Source: an uncultured Planctomycetales bacterium (GTDB lineage Bacteria > Planctomycetota > Planctomycetia > Isosphaerales > Isosphaeraceae). Taken from it: a stretch of DNA of 49,443 nucleotides. Each line of letters opens with the position of its first letter. Position 1 is the stretch's first letter. The position numbers and the translations under genes were made by a program. Positions 3,601-27,872 of this stretch are shown here, piece by piece. Location: positions 1 through 49,443 of the forward strand of contig CAIYJE010000008.1 of assembly GCA_903926465.1 (NCBI GenBank), given 5' to 3'. The notes under the pieces were generated by a model, which was given only the letters and a program-made list of their open reading frames with translations, made no database searches and was not told the DNA's origin.

Positions 3601-4725
3601 GCTGCGCTCATTGCAGTGGAGAGGAAGATCCGGTCTTGAGTCCGGGACGATTGAGCCCCAGATCGGGAAGCAGGCTTCCGAAAGCCAGCGGATTTCGGTT
3701 CCAGTCGCACGCCAGGCAGTCTCATGATCGGACACTGGCGATTATGGAGCAGGCCGAAACTTCTTGGTGGCATTCGGCCCTGGGATGGGCGTGGTGGGCC
3801 TTGCCGCGTATTCGATTCATGTTCCGGCCCCCAATCGACGGGCTTGCCGCGAGTTTGTCAGTATCGGCAGCCGTACTTTTCATTCCTAGAGATCTGAGAG
3901 CCCAGGGTGGCTGGGTCCACATTCAGGAATCTAGCACCCATTCGCCGGAGGGCCGTGCGATACGCCTTTGAACGCAACACGCTGAGAGGTTGGCACACGC
4001 ATCCGGTCAATCATAGGGGGGGGCGGCGGATGTTCGCTGCGGATTCAGGGATTCGGCCCGATAGCCTACGGGCTCAAGCCTTGCCCTTGGATATCGTGCG
4101 TGCGAGATCGTTCGCCCAGGCCAGGGCGCTGGGACTCCTAACGAGCATAGAGCAGCATTCTCTCCGGTGATCGGATTTGCATACTGGGCAAATAGCCAGG
4201 GGTATCGCCAGGTGGTTTCTGCGGAAGTCCACCATTTAAGAATTGGAGCGAGCGTCACAGGGCGGCCCTATCTGGGTATCTCCAGGGCCACGGAAATCGT
4301 TGGAAAATGGTAAGAGATTTTGTGTGGGTAAGATTTTGGGGTTTTATGGCTTTCGCGGGCTTGAGTTTAGTGGTTGTTCTGACTGTGAGTTTGTTACACA
4401 TTGCCTATATTGCCTGGACTTTGGAACCCGAATGATCGCTACTTTTGATTGATGTAAGTTCGTGTGGAAAAGGGAGATCGCGTTCAAGGGATGCCCCAGG
4501 GATGACGATGAGAAGGTTGGCTCGCCAAGGTACACGCCGCGGCGAGGAATGGGGAGCACCGAATGGGGGGTGTTATCCGGCGGGTGGGGCCGCAAGGCCT
4601 CGGGTGATCGGGAACACCTGCCGACGGTTAACGCCTCAGGATTTTCCTCCCGGGCATCGTCAAGCCTTCAAGTGGCATGGCTGCCCTGGTTTGTTCCGTT
4701 AGTCCGTCAAGGAGACGTATCTCCC
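3601..4725. other. 1.1-kb region without a recognisable gene
   Basis: Neither strand has an ORF with family features or a strong ribosome binding site. It separates the divergently transcribed membrane protein and the secreted repeat protein, so both promoters should lie here. The segment around 4310-4445 is noticeably more AT-rich than its surroundings and is a plausible upstream region for the plus-strand gene. Confidence 0.35.
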
Positions 4726-5394
4726 ATGTTTAAGCCTGTGACGTTCAGCCTCAGTCTGGCCGTGGCTCTCGGTGCTGGTAGCTTTGGCTTCGCCGGTGGC
4801 CATGGTAAGAGCCTTCCTTCTGCCCAGAGCGTTGTTCCTAGCGCTCAGGGTGTGGTTGCGTCGGCTCAGACCGACAGCGGCTGCGGCGACATTGGCGGGG
4901 GCTGCGGCCCAGTCGCCAAGAAGTCTTGCCTGGGCGACCTGTTCAAGCACAAGGCCCCTCAGTACGAGTACGAGTGGGTCATGAAGAAGAAGCGGGTCTG
5001 GACCTTCAAGACTCCAGCCCTGTTCAGTGGCCTTGGTCATAAGGGCCTCGGCGGCCTGGGTGCCGGTTGCGGCCTGGGTGGCGCTGGTGGTTGTGATTCT
5101 TGCGGTGGTGCAGTTGCTGCTCCTGCCAGCTACGCTAGCCCACAGGCTGCTCCTAGCAGCCAGGCTGTGTACGGTTCTGGTCAGGCTGCTGCTTACGGTT
5201 CGGGTCAGGGTGCTGCTTACGGCTCAGGCCAGGCCACCTACTCCGCACCTGCCACCTACGGGACCGGCCAGATTGGTGGAAGCAGCCAGATCGTCGCTCC
5301 AGCGACCGACGCGGCTCCTGCTCCTCCAGCCACAGCCAATCCTTCGACCGCCAGCACTGGCAACGTTCTGTTCCTGGCTCCTGCCGGCAACTGA
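4726..5394 (+). CDS. Secreted Gly/Ser/Ala/Gln-rich repeat protein
   Basis: The ATG at 4726 follows a clear AAGGAGA box at the right spacing. Of the 222 residues, the first about 24 form a signal peptide (MFKPVTFSLSLAVALGAGSF...). A Cys/Gly-rich stretch follows (SGCGDIGGGCGP, then KKSCLGDLF), then a basic aromatic segment (YEYEWVMKKKRVWTF), a second Gly/Cys-rich stretch (GLGGLGAGCGLGGAGGCDSCGG) and a low-complexity tail with YGSGQ repeats. The clustered cysteines suggest disulphide or metal bridging, and the tail suggests an extended, possibly surface-exposed protein. I do not recognise a characterised family; comparable proteins occur in planctomycetes. A strong terminator follows, so it forms its own transcription unit. 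The longer in-frame extension to 4462 is rejected because it precedes the signal peptide. Confidence 0.82.
   Translation: MFKPVTFSLSLAVALGAGSFGFAGGHGKSLPSAQSVVPSAQGVVASAQTDSGCGDIGGGCGPVAKKSCLGDLFKHKAPQYEYEWVMKKKRVWTFKTPALFSGLGHKGLGGLGAGCGLGGAGGCDSCGGAVAAPASYASPQAAPSSQAVYGSGQAAAYGSGQGAAYGSGQATYSAPATYGTGQIGGSSQIVAPATDAAPAPPATANPSTASTGNVLFLAPAGN
5170..5241 (+). repeat. Three tandem 24-base units encoding YGSGQ(A/G)AA
   Basis: Within the secreted protein, YGSGQ starts at 5170, 5194 and 5218, with a degenerate YGTGQ copy later. The period is 24 bases (eight codons). Synonymous differences between copies show the duplication is not brand new. Confidence 0.85.
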
Positions 5395-21039: not shown

Positions 21040-22107
21040 TTATTCCAGCGTGCGAATTTCGACTTCGGACCAAAGGCTTGCCAGTTCGGCAGCCAGGTAG
21101 GCAGGAAGGGGAGCCTGGTGGGCCCGGCTGGCAGCAAACCAGCGGGCGAGTTCGGAGGCTTTCACAACCCGTAGCCCGGCGCGTTCGGCAGACTGGCAGA
21201 GCATCCTGGCGGCCGTACCCCGGGCGATGGTTCGCACGCTCACCTGGCCAGGCGGCGGAGCACCGCCCAGCAAGATGGCCATTCCTCCCGCGTCCGTCAC
21301 CACCAAGCTGGCCCCAGCCAGGATTTCGGCGGGATCTTGCCGCCAGCTTCTGGCGGTCTGTTGCCGGCGAGAGCGGATGGCCGGGTCGCCGTCGATCTCT
21401 TTCTGTTCTTCGCGTTGCTGGTCGGGGGTGAGCCTGAGATGCTCTTCAAAACGCCGGAATCGTAGGGCGTAATCCACCAGGCCCACAACAACCCCGGTCA
21501 CGGCCAGCGGCATGCCCACGGTGCGCACCAGTGCAGAGGTGGCCATGAGCAGAGCGGGCAACTCAAGCCAGCCCAGGGTCTCAAGTGCGGGGAACTGGGT
21601 GATCAGGAGCCAGGCGGCAATTGTGATCAGGATTCCCAGTTTGACCAGGGCACCCAGGCCATGGATGAACGGTTCGGCCAGGTTCTGTTCTTCGTCGGAA
21701 TCGGACCCCAGTTTCCAGAGCCGCCCCAGGTCGGGGGTCAGGCGAGCGGGTGCCCAGAGTCCGCCGGTTTGTGCCTGATGCACGGCAATCATGGCGACCA
21801 GCGTTCCCAGCAAAATGGAGCCCAGCGGCATGGCGACCAAGACCGCGCACCGCTGGAACCGGTTGGTGATGTGCGCAGGGTCGATTTCTTGAGAGAGAAA
21901 CTCGGCCTGTGAGGCCGGTGCCGTAAGCCCCTCGGAAATCACCAGGCGGAGTGAACTGCCCAGTTCGCCGCCCCAGGCTCCCAACAGCACGAAGGCGGCG
22001 AGCAGCCCGGCTGCCGCCGTAAGTTCCGGGCTGTGCGGCGCATGGCCGGCATCACGCGCCTGCTGGCGACGTAACCGCGACGGTGCCTGGGTTCGTTCGG
22101 CCGACAT
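21040..22107 (-). CDS. flhB: FlhB-like flagellar export switch protein lacking the NPTH motif
   Basis: FlhB controls substrate switching in the flagellar type III export gate. This 355-residue protein has the family start (TQAPSRLRRQQARDAGHAPH, cf. the usual 'TPKRLxKAREEGQV'), four hydrophobic segments, the ELTAAAGLLAAF helix, and a C-terminal domain entered through DGDPAIRSRRQQ. Where the autocleavage motif NPTH is expected (about residues 269-272 in Salmonella), it reads VVTDAGGMAILL, with DAGG at 272-275. Asn and Pro, which perform self-cleavage, are both gone, so the protein should not autoprocess. The rest of the C-terminal domain (SVRTIARG, then AERAGLRVVKASELAR) remains recognisable. 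It is the last gene of the fliF-to-flhB operon, 39 bases after fliR. Confidence 0.87.
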   Translation of the reverse strand: MSAERTQAPSRLRRQQARDAGHAPHSPELTAAAGLLAAFVLLGAWGGELGSSLRLVISEGLTAPASQAEFLSQEIDPAHITNRFQRCAVLVAMPLGSILLGTLVAMIAVHQAQTGGLWAPARLTPDLGRLWKLGSDSDEEQNLAEPFIHGLGALVKLGILITIAAWLLITQFPALETLGWLELPALLMATSALVRTVGMPLAVTGVVVGLVDYALRFRRFEEHLRLTPDQQREEQKEIDGDPAIRSRRQQTARSWRQDPAEILAGASLVVTDAGGMAILLGGAPPPGQVSVRTIARGTAARMLCQSAERAGLRVVKASELARWFAASRAHQAPLPAYLAAELASLWSEVEIRTLE

Positions 22108-22146: not shown

Positions 22147-22995
22147 TCAAGAACCGCCCATCGAGACGGCCCAGCCGGTCCAGGCCGCAGCCAGAGTGGT
22201 GGCCAGCGTGGCAATCGAAAGCGCCGAAACAATCAGCCCCAGGGCAACGCGGACGGGCCAATCGAGCCCCGACATCGGCCGACCTGCCGCAGATCGAGAG
22301 ATCCAGGCCAGGGCCAGGCCAGAGAGCAGTAGCGCCACCCCGGCCGGCGCGGCGGCTTGCAGTGCCTGGGCCAGCGTGGCGGTCACGCGGGCGAAGAGGT
22401 CGTGGGTCAGGGCCAGTGGGCTGGAACTGTTCGTGTGCGTGGAGTACAAGCCGAACCCAGGCGGGGTGGAGGCGAAGCTGTGAACCAGCGCTCGCACCAT
22501 GACCAGAGGGCCGTCGAGTGTGAGAAACACGCCCATGGCCACCAGGCCATGCAGGTGTCCCAGCGGCGTCAGGCCGCCGGTTCCTCCCTCGTTCAGGTCA
22601 ATTGGTCCCAGGCCCCGGTCGGGCTCGATACCGAACAGGCTCGCGGGGGCCAAGCCGGCATGCTGAGCCACAATCTCGCCCGCCTGCCGTGCCCCGGCCA
22701 CCACCAGCGCGGCCGCAAGCCCCATGGCGGAACCAATGCCGAATTCGATGGCCAGCAACCCGATCCAGCCAGGCAGTTCACCGGGATTGGCCACGGGGGG
22801 AGCGATGGCGGCCACGCCAGGCGCAATGGCCGCCGTCAGGGCAATGGCCAGCACCAGTCGCACGTTATTGCTGATTCCGGCCAGACCCCAGTTCGGGGCC
22901 GTGATCACCAGGCCCAGCACGCGCGTGAGCACAATCACGAAGGTGACCGCCGTGGGGCCCAGAAAATCGAGATCGGGAAAGCCCAGCATGCTCAT
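22147..22995 (-). CDS. fliR: Flagellar export gate protein FliR
   Basis: A 282-residue integral membrane protein of the export gate, which forms the FliPQR core with FliP and FliQ. The N-terminus (FVIVLTRVLGLVITAPNWGL) matches the FliR 'f.lvl.R..gl...aP.fg' helix. Further blocks include EFGIGSAMGLAAALVVAGAR, the 'G.i' segment ARQAGEIVAQHAG and the loop NEGGTGGLTPLGHLHGLVAM, in which FliR proteins usually have 'l..l..l.f...ghh'. The length is slightly above the usual about 260 because of an insertion after the FGIEPD segment. The ATG at 22995 was chosen with a weak ribosome binding site. It lies 56 bases after fliQ and 39 before flhB. Confidence 0.88.
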   Translation of the reverse strand: MSMLGFPDLDFLGPTAVTFVIVLTRVLGLVITAPNWGLAGISNNVRLVLAIALTAAIAPGVAAIAPPVANPGELPGWIGLLAIEFGIGSAMGLAAALVVAGARQAGEIVAQHAGLAPASLFGIEPDRGLGPIDLNEGGTGGLTPLGHLHGLVAMGVFLTLDGPLVMVRALVHSFASTPPGFGLYSTHTNSSSPLALTHDLFARVTATLAQALQAAAPAGVALLLSGLALAWISRSAAGRPMSGLDWPVRVALGLIVSALSIATLATTLAAAWTGWAVSMGGS

Positions 22996-23051: not shown

Positions 23052-23312
23052 TCAACCGCCCAGCGTACTGATAAGTCCACGCGTGTAGCTGACCCAGGTC
23101 GCCAGCATCCAGGGCAGGGTGCCCAGCACCACCAGCAGTACAACCACCTGGCGAGGTACTTGCGCCAGCACCGGTTCATGCAACTGGGTCACGGTTTGTA
23201 CCAGGCTAATAAGCAGGGCTACGGCCACGGCCGCAGCCAGTGGGGGACCGCCCAGCAGAAGGGCCATCCGCAGGGCCTCACGTGACCAGTCGATCAGACG
23301 GCTCGCATCCAC
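23052..23312 (-). CDS. fliQ: Flagellar export gate protein FliQ
   Basis: An 86-residue protein with two transmembrane helices, the normal FliQ size. The start is a GTG at 23312 preceded by GGAAGGA; the longer in-frame ORF to 23495 would add a non-homologous tail running into fliP. The family pattern 'a.....al.......aP.l......g...sl.Qa.TqlnE.tL.f.pk' is seen as SREALRMALLLGGPPLAAAV, then SLVQTVTQLHEPVLAQVPRQ. Unusually, the generally conserved helix-1 'P' block is GGPP. It lies 136 bases after fliP, the largest gap in the operon. Confidence 0.9.
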   Translation of the reverse strand: MDASRLIDWSREALRMALLLGGPPLAAAVAVALLISLVQTVTQLHEPVLAQVPRQVVVLLVVLGTLPWMLATWVSYTRGLISTLGG

Positions 23313-23448
23313 GGTCGTTTTCCTTCCGATCGAACAAAGAGTGCGAAATATCGGTGAGAGCGGTTCACGAATGGATTGCACGGGCGGGACAGTCGCCCCC
23401 AGCTGTCTCTTGAAGTCAGAGGGCAACACGGCTGGTAACTGCCGTCGT

Positions 23449-24381
23449 TCAGGTGATGGACTGGGTTCCAAAGCTGCGGAGCAGCATGTCGGCAATCAGC
23501 ATCCAGCCATCGGCCAGTACAAACAGCGCGAGTTTGATCGGGAGCGCCACCAGCGTGGGCGGCATCAGGAACAGCCCCATGGCCGAGAGTACGGCCGAGA
23601 CCACCAGGTCTACCACCAGAAACGGCAAGAATACGGCGAACCCTAGATAGAGCGCGGTGGTCAGTTCGCTAATCAAGAACGCCGGTGCAATGACCTGGAG
23701 CGGGAACTCTTCGCAGGTCTTGGGTTCTGGCTGACTGTTGGATTCCGCCGTGTGGGCGTACAGTGACCAGAGGTAATTCTGGTGCCCGGTTCGGCAAATC
23801 TGTTCGATCATGAAGGCTTTGATCGGTTCAGACGTCTCAACCCAGGCCACTTGGGGGGTGACTTGCTTTTGCCAGAGCGGCATGAGTGCGCGTGTGTAAA
23901 CCCGCTGCCCCAGCGGAGCCATGACCAGCATGGTCAGCAGCAGTGCCAGTGCGGATAGTGCTTGGGTGCCTGGCACTTGCATGCTCCCGAGCGCCTGGCG
24001 AACCAGCATGAGCACCACGCTAATTCGTACGAAGGCCGTGAACGTGAGTACGGCGGCCGGCAGCAAAGACAGTAAACTGAACAGGGCAAAGCTCCCCACA
24101 CTTCTCATCAGGCTATCCGTCGACGGCATGCCTGGAGTGGATGTGGCGGCTGGGTCGGGAGTGGCGGAAGCCTGGGGCTTTTCCTCGCTCCTGTCATCGG
24201 TAGCCTGGGGCTCGGTTGCAGGCGGTTGGGTGCTGTTCCGAGGTGCAATTGGAACGGCGGCCCGGGCCATGCGTGTGGGAGGTGTGGGCTTTTCTCCTGC
24301 ACTCGCCGTGGGGTTGGTGCTGGAGAACAGGCCCACGAATAATAGAACGTAGAGCGGATAAGCCGGGTGTGATCGGTTCAT
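23449..24381 (-). CDS. fliP: Flagellar export gate protein FliP with a Pro/Thr-rich N-terminal extension
   Basis: FliP forms the export gate pore. The 310 residues include a signal sequence, about 65 residues of Pro/Thr/Ala/Gln-rich low-complexity sequence, then the FliP core. Core motifs: LPAAVLTFTAFVRISVVLML (typical 'lpal.lmmTsFtRiivVl..lR.alG'), RQALGSMQVPGTQAL, LLLTMLVMAP, SEPIKAFMIEQICR, VIAPAFLISELTTALYLGFA (usual 'lipaF..SELk.AF.iGF') and PFLVVDLVVSAVLSAMGLFL (usual 'PFLiiDmvvas.LmsmGm'). The Lys of SELK is Thr here. The start ATG at 24381 lies three bases after the fliO stop. Confidence 0.93.
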   Translation of the reverse strand: MNRSHPAYPLYVLLFVGLFSSTNPTASAGEKPTPPTRMARAAVPIAPRNSTQPPATEPQATDDRSEEKPQASATPDPAATSTPGMPSTDSLMRSVGSFALFSLLSLLPAAVLTFTAFVRISVVLMLVRQALGSMQVPGTQALSALALLLTMLVMAPLGQRVYTRALMPLWQKQVTPQVAWVETSEPIKAFMIEQICRTGHQNYLWSLYAHTAESNSQPEPKTCEEFPLQVIAPAFLISELTTALYLGFAVFLPFLVVDLVVSAVLSAMGLFLMPPTLVALPIKLALFVLADGWMLIADMLLRSFGTQSIT

Positions 24382-24384
24382 GGG

Positions 24385-24939
24385 TCAGACGCCTCCAGCC
24401 GTGGTGATGGGCCGGGGAAGAGGCTCGATTCGAACGGTGGCGGGAATGCGCTCGGTAAGCTTGACCGATTCTTGCGGACTGGGCTCGTCCAGCCAGTCAT
24501 CCAATTCGGTCAGGAGCGTGGGTGGACCCTGAGTTCCGGTGCCTACGAGCAAGGTGCGTGATCCCACGCGTACGGTGTAGATTGAGTGACGGCCACCGAG
24601 TGATTGGCGGCCGAGCACCTGAATGGCGTTGCCGTGTGTGGGCCGCGGCGTCTGGGGATAGCGGCGGATCACGAAGGCGTACAATCCCACGCCCGCCAGA
24701 ACAGCTCCAATTCCGAGTGTGCCGTAGCTCCAGCCGCTTACGGGTGCAGTCGTGGTTGCACCCGCCTGGCCTGGCCGCTGGATTGGATGAACCCTGCGCG
24801 TGCTGGTTGGGGCCGTTGGTCCGTCATCCTCCTGCGCCCTGGCCTGTGTGATCAGGGTGAGGGCCAGCAACAGCAACAGCAACAGCAACAGGAACAGCGG
24901 TTTTCTGGTGCGCAGCAATGCCAGCAGGTGGTGCTTCAT
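24385..24939 (-). CDS. fliO: FliO-like flagellar export chaperone
   Basis: FliO is a small membrane protein that assists FliP assembly. This 184-residue protein starts at an ATG after an AAGGA box. It has an exceptionally leucine-rich N-terminal signal or anchor (nine consecutive Leu), a low-complexity periplasmic linker, a transmembrane helix (TLGIGAVLAGVGLYAFVIRR) and the FliO cytoplasmic domain with NAIQVLGRQSLGGRHSIYTV then RVGSRTLLVGTG (usual 'i.vl....Lg.k..l.lv.vg.r.lLlG.t'). It lies directly upstream of fliP with a three-base gap, the classical gene order. Confidence 0.87.
   Translation of the reverse strand: MKHHLLALLRTRKPLFLLLLLLLLLALTLITQARAQEDDGPTAPTSTRRVHPIQRPGQAGATTTAPVSGWSYGTLGIGAVLAGVGLYAFVIRRYPQTPRPTHGNAIQVLGRQSLGGRHSIYTVRVGSRTLLVGTGTQGPPTLLTELDDWLDEPSPQESVKLTERIPATVRIEPLPRPITTAGGV
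24865..24894 (-). repeat. Hexanucleotide microsatellite in fliO coding the poly-Leu run
   Basis: Four exact CAGCAA units (plus-strand reading) plus one variant unit, encoding consecutive leucines in the FliO signal sequence. The unit is a multiple of three, so copy-number change alters helix length without shifting the frame. Confidence 0.85.
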
Positions 24940-24993: not shown

Positions 24994-25320
24994 TCAGGCC
25001 ACCATGTCCAGGATGTCTTCCGGATGATCGAAGGCAATCTGGCCGTGGCGTGCGAGCCGGCAGAGGACCTCGACCACGGTCTCTCGGGCTGCCAGCACGA
25101 ACTCGGCGGAAAGGGGTTCCGCCGAGGGCTGGCTGAAGTAGCTATCAATGGCTCGGGCGGTGGCTTGTGGAAGCCGGTTCAGCAACCTGCGCCTGAGGTT
25201 GGCATCCAGGCCCACGAATGCGGCTGCAACCTGGCCAAAGTCAACCAGAGCGAGCACAGCGCGCAGGTCGGGCGTATCCAGCTGGTCCAGGTCATCAATA
25301 ACCACGAGGTTCTCAGACAA
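24994..25320 (-). CDS. Second FliG C-terminal-domain-like protein
   Basis: A 108-residue protein that resembles an isolated FliG_C domain: NLVVIDDLDQLDTPDLRAVL (cf. 'FVFEDIv.lDdraiq.lLre'), VDFGQVAAAFVGLDANLRRR (cf. 'v....lalAlkgas.elr.k'), LLNRLPQATARAIDSYFSQP and a final AARETVVEVLCRLARHGQI (cf. 'eaq..iv.i.r.Le..G.i'). The start is a TTG at 25320, chosen because a perfect AGGAGGAG box sits five bases upstream and because it overlaps the end of fliG by eight bases, indicating coupling. It lacks any FliG_N or middle domain. It may supply a separate torque or stator-facing ring component, or be a divergent switch paralogue. Confidence 0.7.
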   Translation of the reverse strand: MSENLVVIDDLDQLDTPDLRAVLALVDFGQVAAAFVGLDANLRRRLLNRLPQATARAIDSYFSQPSAEPLSAEFVLAARETVVEVLCRLARHGQIAFDHPEDILDMVA

Positions 25321-25900
25321 GGATCTCCTCCTGACTGCTGGACTCTGGAAGGGCGAGCAAACCTTCGTCGTGAAGCCGTCGAAGTCGGTCGGCAATCTCG
25401 GCCTGGGCCGACTCTACATGCTCAAGCCGGAACGGGCCCAGGTTTGCGAGTGCCTGCTGTAAGGTTTCGGAGGCGGGGGCGGCCAGTGCGGCTAGCACCT
25501 TCTGGCGCACGGGGCGCGATGCGCCGGCCAGGGCCAGAGCCCACACGCTCACTTCCTCTTCGCGGAAAGCCAGGCAGAGGTCCGGGTCATCCATGCGTAC
25601 CACGTCGTCAAAGACGAACCGGAGCCGCTTCATGCCAAGGGCATAGAATTCGGTGAGAACCTCGCGTTGCAGCTCGGGATCGATGTGTTCAAGCCGGGCC
25701 ATTTCCAGGCTGACGGCATCAACGTCGGCCCGATCCAGATGGGAAAGGATCTGGCGTGCCAGTGATTCCTCCAGGCTTACCACCAGGATGGCCGCCTTGC
25801 GGAGCGGGTCCAGGTTTAGCCGAGAGCGTCTGGTCTCCGTGCCCATCGAAGACGTTTCTGGGGCGGTGCGTGGGCGTGTTTCCAGGCCGATCGTCGTCAT
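25313..25900 (-). CDS. fliG: Short FliG lacking the middle domain
   Basis: FliG is the rotor protein that joins the MS ring (FliF) to the C ring (FliM) and contacts the stator. The ATG at 25900 overlaps the fliF stop (ATGA) and has GGAGG nine bases upstream. The protein has 195 residues instead of about 330. Residues 33-88 match FliG_N (LRKAAILVVSLEESLARQIL, then EHIDPELQREVLTEFYAL), and residues about 95-183 match FliG_C (FVFDDVVRMDDPDL, then ALAGASRPVRQKVLAALA, then NLGPFRLEHVESAQAEIADR). The FliG_M domain with its EHPQ(R) motif, which binds FliM, is completely absent, with GMKRLR as the join. A second FliG_C-like gene follows immediately. Confidence 0.87.
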   Translation of the reverse strand: MTTIGLETRPRTAPETSSMGTETRRSRLNLDPLRKAAILVVSLEESLARQILSHLDRADVDAVSLEMARLEHIDPELQREVLTEFYALGMKRLRFVFDDVVRMDDPDLCLAFREEEVSVWALALAGASRPVRQKVLAALAAPASETLQQALANLGPFRLEHVESAQAEIADRLRRLHDEGLLALPESSSQEEILV

Positions 25901-27432
25901 CGGATATGACCTCCCTGCGCGATCCAGCGGTGCAGAACGCCGGCCGCTGCGCCGGGGTCGAGGCGAATCAGTTCACGAACGCGTTCGGTGGCGGTGGTGG
26001 TGGTAACCGTGGCCTGGGGGGCCGACTTTTGCCGCCGCCCGGCTGATGGATCCGGGCCAAGCCAGGGGCGTCTCAGGGCTAGCCAGCCACCACCCAGCAA
26101 CAGCAGGACGGCTGCGGCAAGGGCCAGGCCGCCCACAACGGGGAGCCAGCTTGGATTCCCTTTCCGGGGCGTCAGGCCGTTCATGCCGGCAAGCTGTCCA
26201 GACTCCAGGTCATCAATTCTCACGATGTTGAGCGCGGCCATCTCTTGCGACGGGATGATGGCGTTGACCACCGTCTGAATGGTTTCACGCACCCGGACCG
26301 CAAAGGGGGCCAGATCATCGGGGGTAGGTGCCTGCGTGGGATGGATGGCCTGGAACAGCTTGAGGTAATGACTGCGTGGAACCTGAACCAGCACGTAGGC
26401 TTGCCTAGGCAGTTCGCTGAATCGGTGATTGACGTGGCTGTTGCCAGTTCCTGCGTTTGAGGCTGGATGCGTGGCGTTTGCGAGCAGCCTGGGCGTTGAA
26501 TCTTCGGCTGGGCGTGAGCTGGGTTCGTCGGTGACCACGGGGCGGTTCACGCCGATGCGGTTAGGCGGAGCGATGGCGGGGGCTTCGTCGTCATGGGCCT
26601 GGAGCGGACTGGCCTGATCAATACGAACGTAGACCAGGGCGCCATCAATCCGGAGCTGATTCAGGATTTTCTCACGGAGTTCTTCCTCACGCACCCGGAC
26701 GGTGGAACGGGCTTCCACGTCGGGCCGGCCGGCCACTCGATAGTCTCGGCCATTGGTGGGGTCAATGACCGTGATGGCATCCGGATCAACCGCATCAATG
26801 TTCGTCAAAACGTGGCAGATTCGGTCGATGGTGCTGTGTGAGAGCGGCTGATCGTCTTCGGTCTGGATCAGGGCGGTGGCTTTGAGCGAGCGCACGGAAC
26901 TCAGGCGATTGGTGGGTGCCACGGGGGTAAGGATGATCGTTGCCGAGACCACGCCTCGGAATCTGGCGATCACCTCACGGGCAATTTTTTCCTTGCCGCG
27001 CAGGTCGCGTTTGTCCCGGTCGTCGGGCAGTTCCCACATGGAGCCGGCGGTGGCTCGATCGTCCAGTAGGTCGTCGAGCGGGCGTGGGCCGATGTGGCCC
27101 CGGCCCAGAACTTCAAGGGCTTCCGCCCGTTTGGCGGCTGCCACGCCCAGCTTGCCACCGGTTTCCACACAGGGAATGTCGGCCGCCTTGAGCGCGGAGA
27201 TAATTTTAGCGCTTTCGGTGCGCGAGAAGACTCGACCGTCATAGAGCCATTCCGTGTTGGCGGGCTCTGAGCCGGTGAAAAAACTGGCCGCGGTGGCCAG
27301 CAAAACCACGGCAATAAGTCCACCAATCGCCCAGCGTGCCCGTGGTCCAGCTTGGCCAAGCCAAGCGCCCAGGCGCTCATGCGCTGATCGAAGCTGTTCT
27401 GTCGCAAATTGTTGCGCGTCGTCCGCTCGCAT
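25897..27432 (-). CDS. fliF: Flagellar MS-ring protein FliF
   Basis: FliF builds the MS ring in the inner membrane around the export gate. From the ATG at 27432 (MRADDAQQF; a GAGGGG box lies eight bases upstream) the product is about 511 residues; an upstream in-frame ATG (27468) and GTG (27495) are alternatives. There is an N-terminal transmembrane helix (WAIGGLIAVVLLATAASFFT), a YscJ/FliF ring-building segment (EWLYDGRVFSRTESAKIISA, then LKAADIPCVE), a second helix near the C-terminus (LPVVGGLALAAAVLLLLGGG), and a cytoplasmic tail ending VRELIRLDPGAAAGVLHRWI, the FliG_N-binding element. The periplasmic part is somewhat divergent. It heads the fliF-fliG-FliG_C-fliOPQR-flhB operon. Confidence 0.9.
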   Translation of the reverse strand: MRADDAQQFATEQLRSAHERLGAWLGQAGPRARWAIGGLIAVVLLATAASFFTGSEPANTEWLYDGRVFSRTESAKIISALKAADIPCVETGGKLGVAAAKRAEALEVLGRGHIGPRPLDDLLDDRATAGSMWELPDDRDKRDLRGKEKIAREVIARFRGVVSATIILTPVAPTNRLSSVRSLKATALIQTEDDQPLSHSTIDRICHVLTNIDAVDPDAITVIDPTNGRDYRVAGRPDVEARSTVRVREEELREKILNQLRIDGALVYVRIDQASPLQAHDDEAPAIAPPNRIGVNRPVVTDEPSSRPAEDSTPRLLANATHPASNAGTGNSHVNHRFSELPRQAYVLVQVPRSHYLKLFQAIHPTQAPTPDDLAPFAVRVRETIQTVVNAIIPSQEMAALNIVRIDDLESGQLAGMNGLTPRKGNPSWLPVVGGLALAAAVLLLLGGGWLALRRPWLGPDPSAGRRQKSAPQATVTTTTATERVRELIRLDPGAAAGVLHRWIAQGGHIR

Positions 27433-27872
27433 CCCTGCGTCCCCTCGCGCTGACGGTAAAAACCGCATCTTGCGGTCTTTAGGTGTGTTATCCACAAATG
27501 GCCGATATTGTCAATTCGAGCCGGTGCAAAGGAGCGGTGATGAGCTTCACGGGTCGGGAGCCTGCTTGGTTGGCTCCAGGCCACCTGTCTGTTCGCCTGA
27601 GATCAATATTTGCAGGAAGCTCGACACTGGGGGTTTGGATTCGCAAAAACACAGTAGGGCAGCCTTAGGTGTTCTCGGATCGGGTCTCCTGAGGAAACCG
27701 GCCTTGTCAGACTGCCCCGAACCGGGCAGGATTCGCGAACCTGCCTGCTTTGCATCCCTTTTGAACTGCCTGATCTATCCCGCGAATTCCTGAATTATAG
27801 GCGTCGTTTGGGCGCGAAACTCTGGAATTCTCGATCCTATCGGACGGGCGGAGAGCCCAGGGGCGTTCCGTG
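27433..27872. other. Divergent promoter region between the fliF operon and the lipoprotein gene
   Basis: About 440 bases between divergently transcribed units. No gene was seen; promoters for both sides should lie here but I could not assign boxes reliably. Confidence 0.4.

Follow-up and report, generated by a model that had tools for sequence, protein, structure and literature searches.

The FlhB protein encoded in the window (the whole stretch of 49,443 nucleotides analysed here) carries no self-cleavage motif in its C-terminal domain, and we consider it probable that this protein belongs to a repurposed, single-mode flagellar export gate, which lacks axial parts and is kept for a non-flagellar task. 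The gate core in the window would consist of the FliF ring, two FliG-like proteins, FliO/P/Q/R and FlhB, with FlhA supplied from elsewhere in the genome. FlhB would be produced and persist as one uncleaved chain, and the gate would be fixed in one mode without a specificity switch; in this family it would run without the FliI ATPase, probably on proton motive force, and translocate a putative non-flagellar client through the inner membrane.

The flhB frame is open and intact (Table 1), and its product matched PF01312 over residues 4–343 with 137.6 bits against a cut-off of 24.4. Its scores were below the cut-offs of both equivalog profiles, TIGR00328 for flagellar FlhB (90.4 versus 349.25 bits) and TIGR01404 for the injectisome protein SctU (90.2 versus 358 bits), and it is therefore a divergent member. 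DAGG stands in place of the self-cleaving NP(T/E)H motif: when a 15-member family profile was aligned to solved FlhB sequences, residues 272–275 fell on NPEH, and in an alignment with a canonical set the same stretch fell on NPTH, NPTE or NPSH, the motifs read in all members of that set, which comprised the 30 best-scoring planctomycete FlhB proteins, a choice that favours canonical ones. In the AlphaFold (AF2) model of the protein (mean pLDDT 83), DAGG is predicted to form a turn between strands 266–271 and 276–282. Foldseek returned as top matches mainly autocleavage-dead C-domains of YscU and EscU, plus FlhB (6s3l); the C-domain matches, to YscU, EscU, CT091 and FlhB, had a probability of 1.00 and E-values of 0.0017–0.03. 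Judged by the model, the FlhB/YscU C-domain fold is kept. The sequence-only reading of this DNA had placed DAGG at the NPTH position of an otherwise recognisable FlhB C-terminal domain; the two alignments bear out the former, and PF01312 coverage together with Foldseek the latter. Displacement of NPTH to another part of the protein was ruled out, since no Asn-Pro dipeptide occurs anywhere in the 355 residues, and the missing Asn and Pro also support the expectation of that reading that FlhB should remain uncleaved. The genome gave no second PF01312 match, FlhB being a single-copy protein; both a second canonical FlhB and a separate FlhB-C (FhlX-like) protein, for which the reading had proposed a check, were thus ruled out for the window's genome.

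The loss extends through the family, defined here as 45 genomes taken to be Isosphaeraceae. FlhB was matched in 38 of them, once per genome, and none of the 38 aligned proteins has NPTH or NPTE, so that the clade-wide loss for which an alignment had been suggested is what the alignment gave. At the cleavage position most family proteins have a glycine-rich GxxG-type turn; since relatives show such turns at the same place, the alignments mark DAGG as neither chance nor sequencing error. In several genera the C-domain is missing from FlhB, and no detached C-domain was found near the C-domain-less FlhB genes of family members, except for a marginal fragment in L124, a locus taken as that of Isosphaera pallida. 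Salmonella and Shewanella require FlhB cleavage to change over to filament export but can make hooks without it (PMC7771051, PMC13344023): uncleavable FlhB abolishes filaments and not hooks (PMC7771051), and the switch is flipped by removing the C-terminal part of FlhB (PMC13344023). The family holds both predicted uncleavable and C-domain-less FlhB and therefore fits a system in which the switch no longer matters. Because cleavage serves the hook-to-filament switch, NPTH would have been lost as a consequence of the loss of hook and filament.

Regarding the remaining flagellar parts, flagellin (Flagellin_N) was found in none of the 45 family genomes, while the same profile was positive in four control genomes. 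The hook/rod C-domain Flg_bbr_C was not found in the window's genome, nor was the rod N-domain Flg_bb_rod, which had matches in 3 of the 45 family genomes. The C-domain of the type III secretion ATPase (PF18269, FliI-type) was detected in a single family genome and not in that of the window; as this profile picks up, at 68.7 bits, the ATPase in a divergent relative among the planctomycetes, the absence does not merely reflect insensitivity. Isosphaera pallida has been described with pili and gliding and without flagella (PMC3072084), and a published survey reported few flagellar assembly genes and no motile swarmer cells in the family (PMC5352709). Flagellin being absent, the rod N-domain rare and the ATPase C-domain all but undetected, and given these descriptions, there is no hook-to-filament transition to regulate. 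The sequence-only reading had taken the missing motif to imply that the hook-to-filament switch is altered or absent, in what would be a working flagellum. The cleavage motif is indeed missing from FlhB, as that view requires, but it presupposes a hook and a filament, and since the genome has neither, it needs replacing; against undetected flagellin and rod/hook C-domain, and the published accounts of I. pallida and the family, a working flagellum is hardly credible.

In the window, fliF, the two fliG-like genes, fliO, fliP, fliQ, fliR and flhB follow one another in this order on the reverse strand (Table 1), an order common to most family loci; exceptions are L112, in which the block is rearranged, and L124, in which flhB stands alone. 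The fliQ frame extends to 23495, and since the FliQ match covers only the C-terminal half of this long frame, the true start probably lies near 23324. The listed GTG start of fliF sits inside a conserved promoter-like element and was for this reason judged too far upstream; the true start is probably further downstream, for example at an ATG near 27468. FliG is split over two adjacent genes (24994–25900), the middle domain of the first scoring below the cut-off, and such a pair of FliG matches recurs in many family loci. The flhA gene of the window's genome lies on another contig (766 bits against the general profile); flhA was found in all 38 genomes searched, and its neighbours in relatives encode an FlhF-like GTPase, a ParA-type ATPase and a FliA-type sigma factor. 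Of the components expected in a flagellum, FlhA, FliPQR and FliF are all present in the window's genome. A FliM/SctQ-like protein is present in most family members and was not detected in several genomes, including those of the window and I. pallida.

Table 1. Positions of the export-gate genes and associated elements in the window.
Feature	Position	Strand	Evidence and remarks
flhB	21040..22107	(-)	355 aa; membrane domain and FlhB C-domain without NPTH
DAGG codons (residues 272–275), place of NPTH	21283..21294	(-)	alignments, model
fliR	22147..22995	(-)	PF01311, 105.4 bits
fliQ	23052..23324	(-)	PF01313, 73.1 bits, residues 67–138 of long ORF
fliP	23449..24381	(-)	PF00813, 196.2 bits
fliO	24385..24939	(-)	PF04347, 35 bits versus cut-off 22
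fliG-like, second gene (FliG_C domain only)	24994..25395	(-)	PF01706, 37.4 bits; start uncertain
fliG-like, first gene (FliG_N joined to FliG_C)	25313..25900	(-)	PF14842, 60.6 bits; PF01706, 76 bits
fliF (MS-ring)	25897..27495	(-)	PF01514, 27.4 bits; family profile E 6e-179
Promoter-like element TTGACA-N12-TGTGGATAAC	27487..27514	(-)	upstream of fliF

The promoter-like element takes the form TTGACA-N12-TGTGG(A/C)TAAC and precedes fliF in many family members; the 386 kb of family loci contain nine exact copies of TGTGGATAA, eight of them at this pre-fliF position. Rfam gave no match, and a sigma-28 promoter upstream of fliF was discarded as a candidate, with no signal over controls (mean score 8.1 versus 7.7). 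TGTGGATAA is a perfect DnaA box, and control by DnaA through it is a speculation. Separately, a small, secreted-looking, Cys-rich protein is encoded in the window (4462–5394) and in L106 (15489–16064), the two copies having the stretch YEWVxKKKRVW in common; the L106 copy sits upstream of fliF and had no Pfam match.

Pairwise dN/dS values were mostly 0.04–0.5 for FliP, FliQ, FliR and the membrane part of FlhB, and 0.06–0.84 for the FlhB C-domain, which is strictly constrained in Singulisphaera and relaxed elsewhere. The gate system as a whole is under purifying selection and is not a pseudogene cluster, and the FlhB C-domain is the part of it that is freest to change. These data bear on whether the block is a decaying relic of a flagellum. 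The axial genes and ATPase were not found, the FliM-like protein is likewise missing in the window's genome, and several genera are without the FlhB C-domain, all as a relic would have it; on the other hand, a full operon with open frames is maintained through the family, dN/dS is well under 1 for most parts, FlhA still reaches its high score against the general profile and the promoter-like element is conserved, so that we regard decay as improbable. Two of the observations nevertheless count against a repurposed export gate, namely the C-domain, with dN/dS up to 0.84 and deletion in some genera, which also fits slow decay, and the FliM-like protein, undetected in several genomes, that of the window included.

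The other known half of the specificity switch lies in FlhA. Axial-less gates have lost Thr-490 (Salmonella numbering) more often than any other of the 134 columns that do not vary in canonical planctomycete FlhA (kept in 15 of 15 canonical, 2 of 15 other axial-less and 0 of 11 family proteins); it emerged from a ranking of all columns and had not been sought beforehand. The Phe-459 column is aromatic in all canonical FlhA proteins and Thr or Ser in 11 of 11 family proteins, and Asp-456 is mostly retained in the family. Numbering was transferred by alignment, in which D456, F459 and T490 fall at their published positions. Thr-490 and Phe-459 belong to the dimple of FlhA at which filament chaperones dock (PMC8166844, PMC10965912). 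At the level of sequence, then, both known halves of the switch, the FlhB motif and the FlhA dimple, are altered and the channel is kept. For FlhA, the best solved relatives are flagellar FlhA proteins (500 and 446 bits), ahead of a low-calcium-response (SctV-type) protein (374 bits). An altered methionine gasket in FliP was considered as a further convergent trait and set aside as not clean, since canonical proteins vary too.

The disappearance of the switch residues from both FlhA and FlhB would also suit an assembly that exports nothing, in which FliF, FliG, FlhA and FlhB serve as a scaffold or landmark in the membrane, for instance one used in pilus function, gliding or budding. Deletion of flhA, flhB, fliI or fliR inhibits twitching in Lysobacter enzymogenes (PMC7277350), I. 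pallida combines gliding and pili with the lack of flagella (PMC3072084), and the genes for the FlhF-like GTPase, ParA-type ATPase and FliA-like sigma factor adjoin flhA in family members. A purely structural role of the gate is possible. A pure scaffold, however, need not keep a pore, whereas FliP, FliQ, FliR, FlhA and the membrane part of FlhB are all kept here, and fliP and fliQ of Lysobacter are dispensable for twitching (PMC7277350); we therefore rate the scaffold as rather unlikely.

The association of a missing motif with missing axial parts is also found outside the family. FlhB scores were bimodal across 195 planctomycete genomes. In 20 of 20 tested genomes with a sole, NPTH-less FlhB (the window's included; in 3 of them FlhB was judged by profile coverage only and not by alignment), neither Flagellin_N nor Flg_bbr_C was found, whereas both were present in 5 of 5 genomes with canonical FlhB tested alongside. 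Three of these five also have a second, NPTH-less gate together with a second FlhA. In an FlhA tree built from planctomycete sequences only, without an injectisome outgroup, the family forms one clade (100/100), and the other axial-less gates fall among the flagellar FlhA proteins of their own families. The tree does not support one common origin for the axial-less gates, as it forces four changes on supported branches; the topology argues for repeated vertical conversion to axial-less gates, the direction of change being one that we infer. A sign test on independent pairs agreed in 4 of 4 (p 0.125), too few pairs for significance.

Some systems outside the family deserve separate mention. Dual-system planctomycetes (G212 with L101 and L179, G122 with L102 and L180, G109 with L103 and L181) combine a complete set of flagellar genes, whose FlhB has NPTH, with an NPTH-less FlhB and a second FlhA; in the tree their flagellar FlhA stands beside distant planctomycetes and the second FlhA within their own family, a pattern that would suit re-acquisition of the flagellum. 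In another family (f16), L090, L092 and L093 are axial-less with C-domain-less FlhB and still have fliF, and FliH and a FliI-type ATPase were identified in L090; these systems are a less reduced stage. L104 (G139) and L105 (G104) encode FlhB with a full-length C-domain in which EPDR or APNG occupies the cleavage site, without flagellin and with Thr-490 retained in FlhA, and are possible intermediates.

In its widest form, the proposal is that the flagellum was remodelled repeatedly and independently in planctomycetes into an inner-membrane export gate that has neither switch nor axial parts and serves a fixed non-flagellar client. Every such conversion would have removed the cleavage site of FlhB, and almost every one the chaperone dimple of FlhA, and in some species the gate would persist next to a separate, complete flagellum; we advance this tentatively, giving it close to an even chance. 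For the type III specificity switch, such gates amount to a natural experiment: in several lineages that have given up hook and filament and kept the channel, the FlhB motif and FlhA Thr-490/Phe-459 vanish in step, which is independent evidence that the motif and the dimple residues serve switching and chaperone docking and not channel function. The gates also suggest that bacteria lacking flagella put the flagellar export apparatus to a use that has gone unrecognised, and the cultured members Isosphaera pallida, Singulisphaera acidiphila and Paludisphaera borealis make the function directly testable.

In the open-access literature, to which the search was confined and which is weak evidence in this respect, neither gates of this kind in Isosphaeraceae nor a natural NPTH-less FlhB turned up as the subject of a paper. 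The canonical flagellar gate of flagellated planctomycetes and Salmonella uses the same proteins (FlhA, FlhB, FliPQR, FliF and FliG), and the FlhB C-domain fold and full-length FlhA are kept here; unlike that gate, the present one has no NPTH, no FlhA Thr-490/Phe-459, no axial parts and no detectable FliI ATPase, and its FliG-like genes are split. Laboratory FlhB variants, N269A and C-terminally removed FlhB (PMC7771051, PMC13344023), both have natural equivalents in the family, namely the predicted uncleavable FlhB of most members and the C-domain-less FlhB of others, but these are fixed family-wide, in a system without hook or filament. The nearest precedents are the systems of Lysobacter and Myxococcales. 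Lysobacter enzymogenes OH11 has likewise kept export genes without flagella and given them another role; however, its FliI ATPase is kept and required for its export, and its export genes are not in an operon (PMC7277350). The non-flagellar type III secretion system of Myxococcales is similarly conserved and incomplete, lacking core genes; it was once called a relic, and its conservation has been taken as an argument for function (PMC3459982). It belongs to the non-flagellar branch, whereas FlhA here falls among planctomycete flagellar FlhA proteins, in a tree without an injectisome outgroup.
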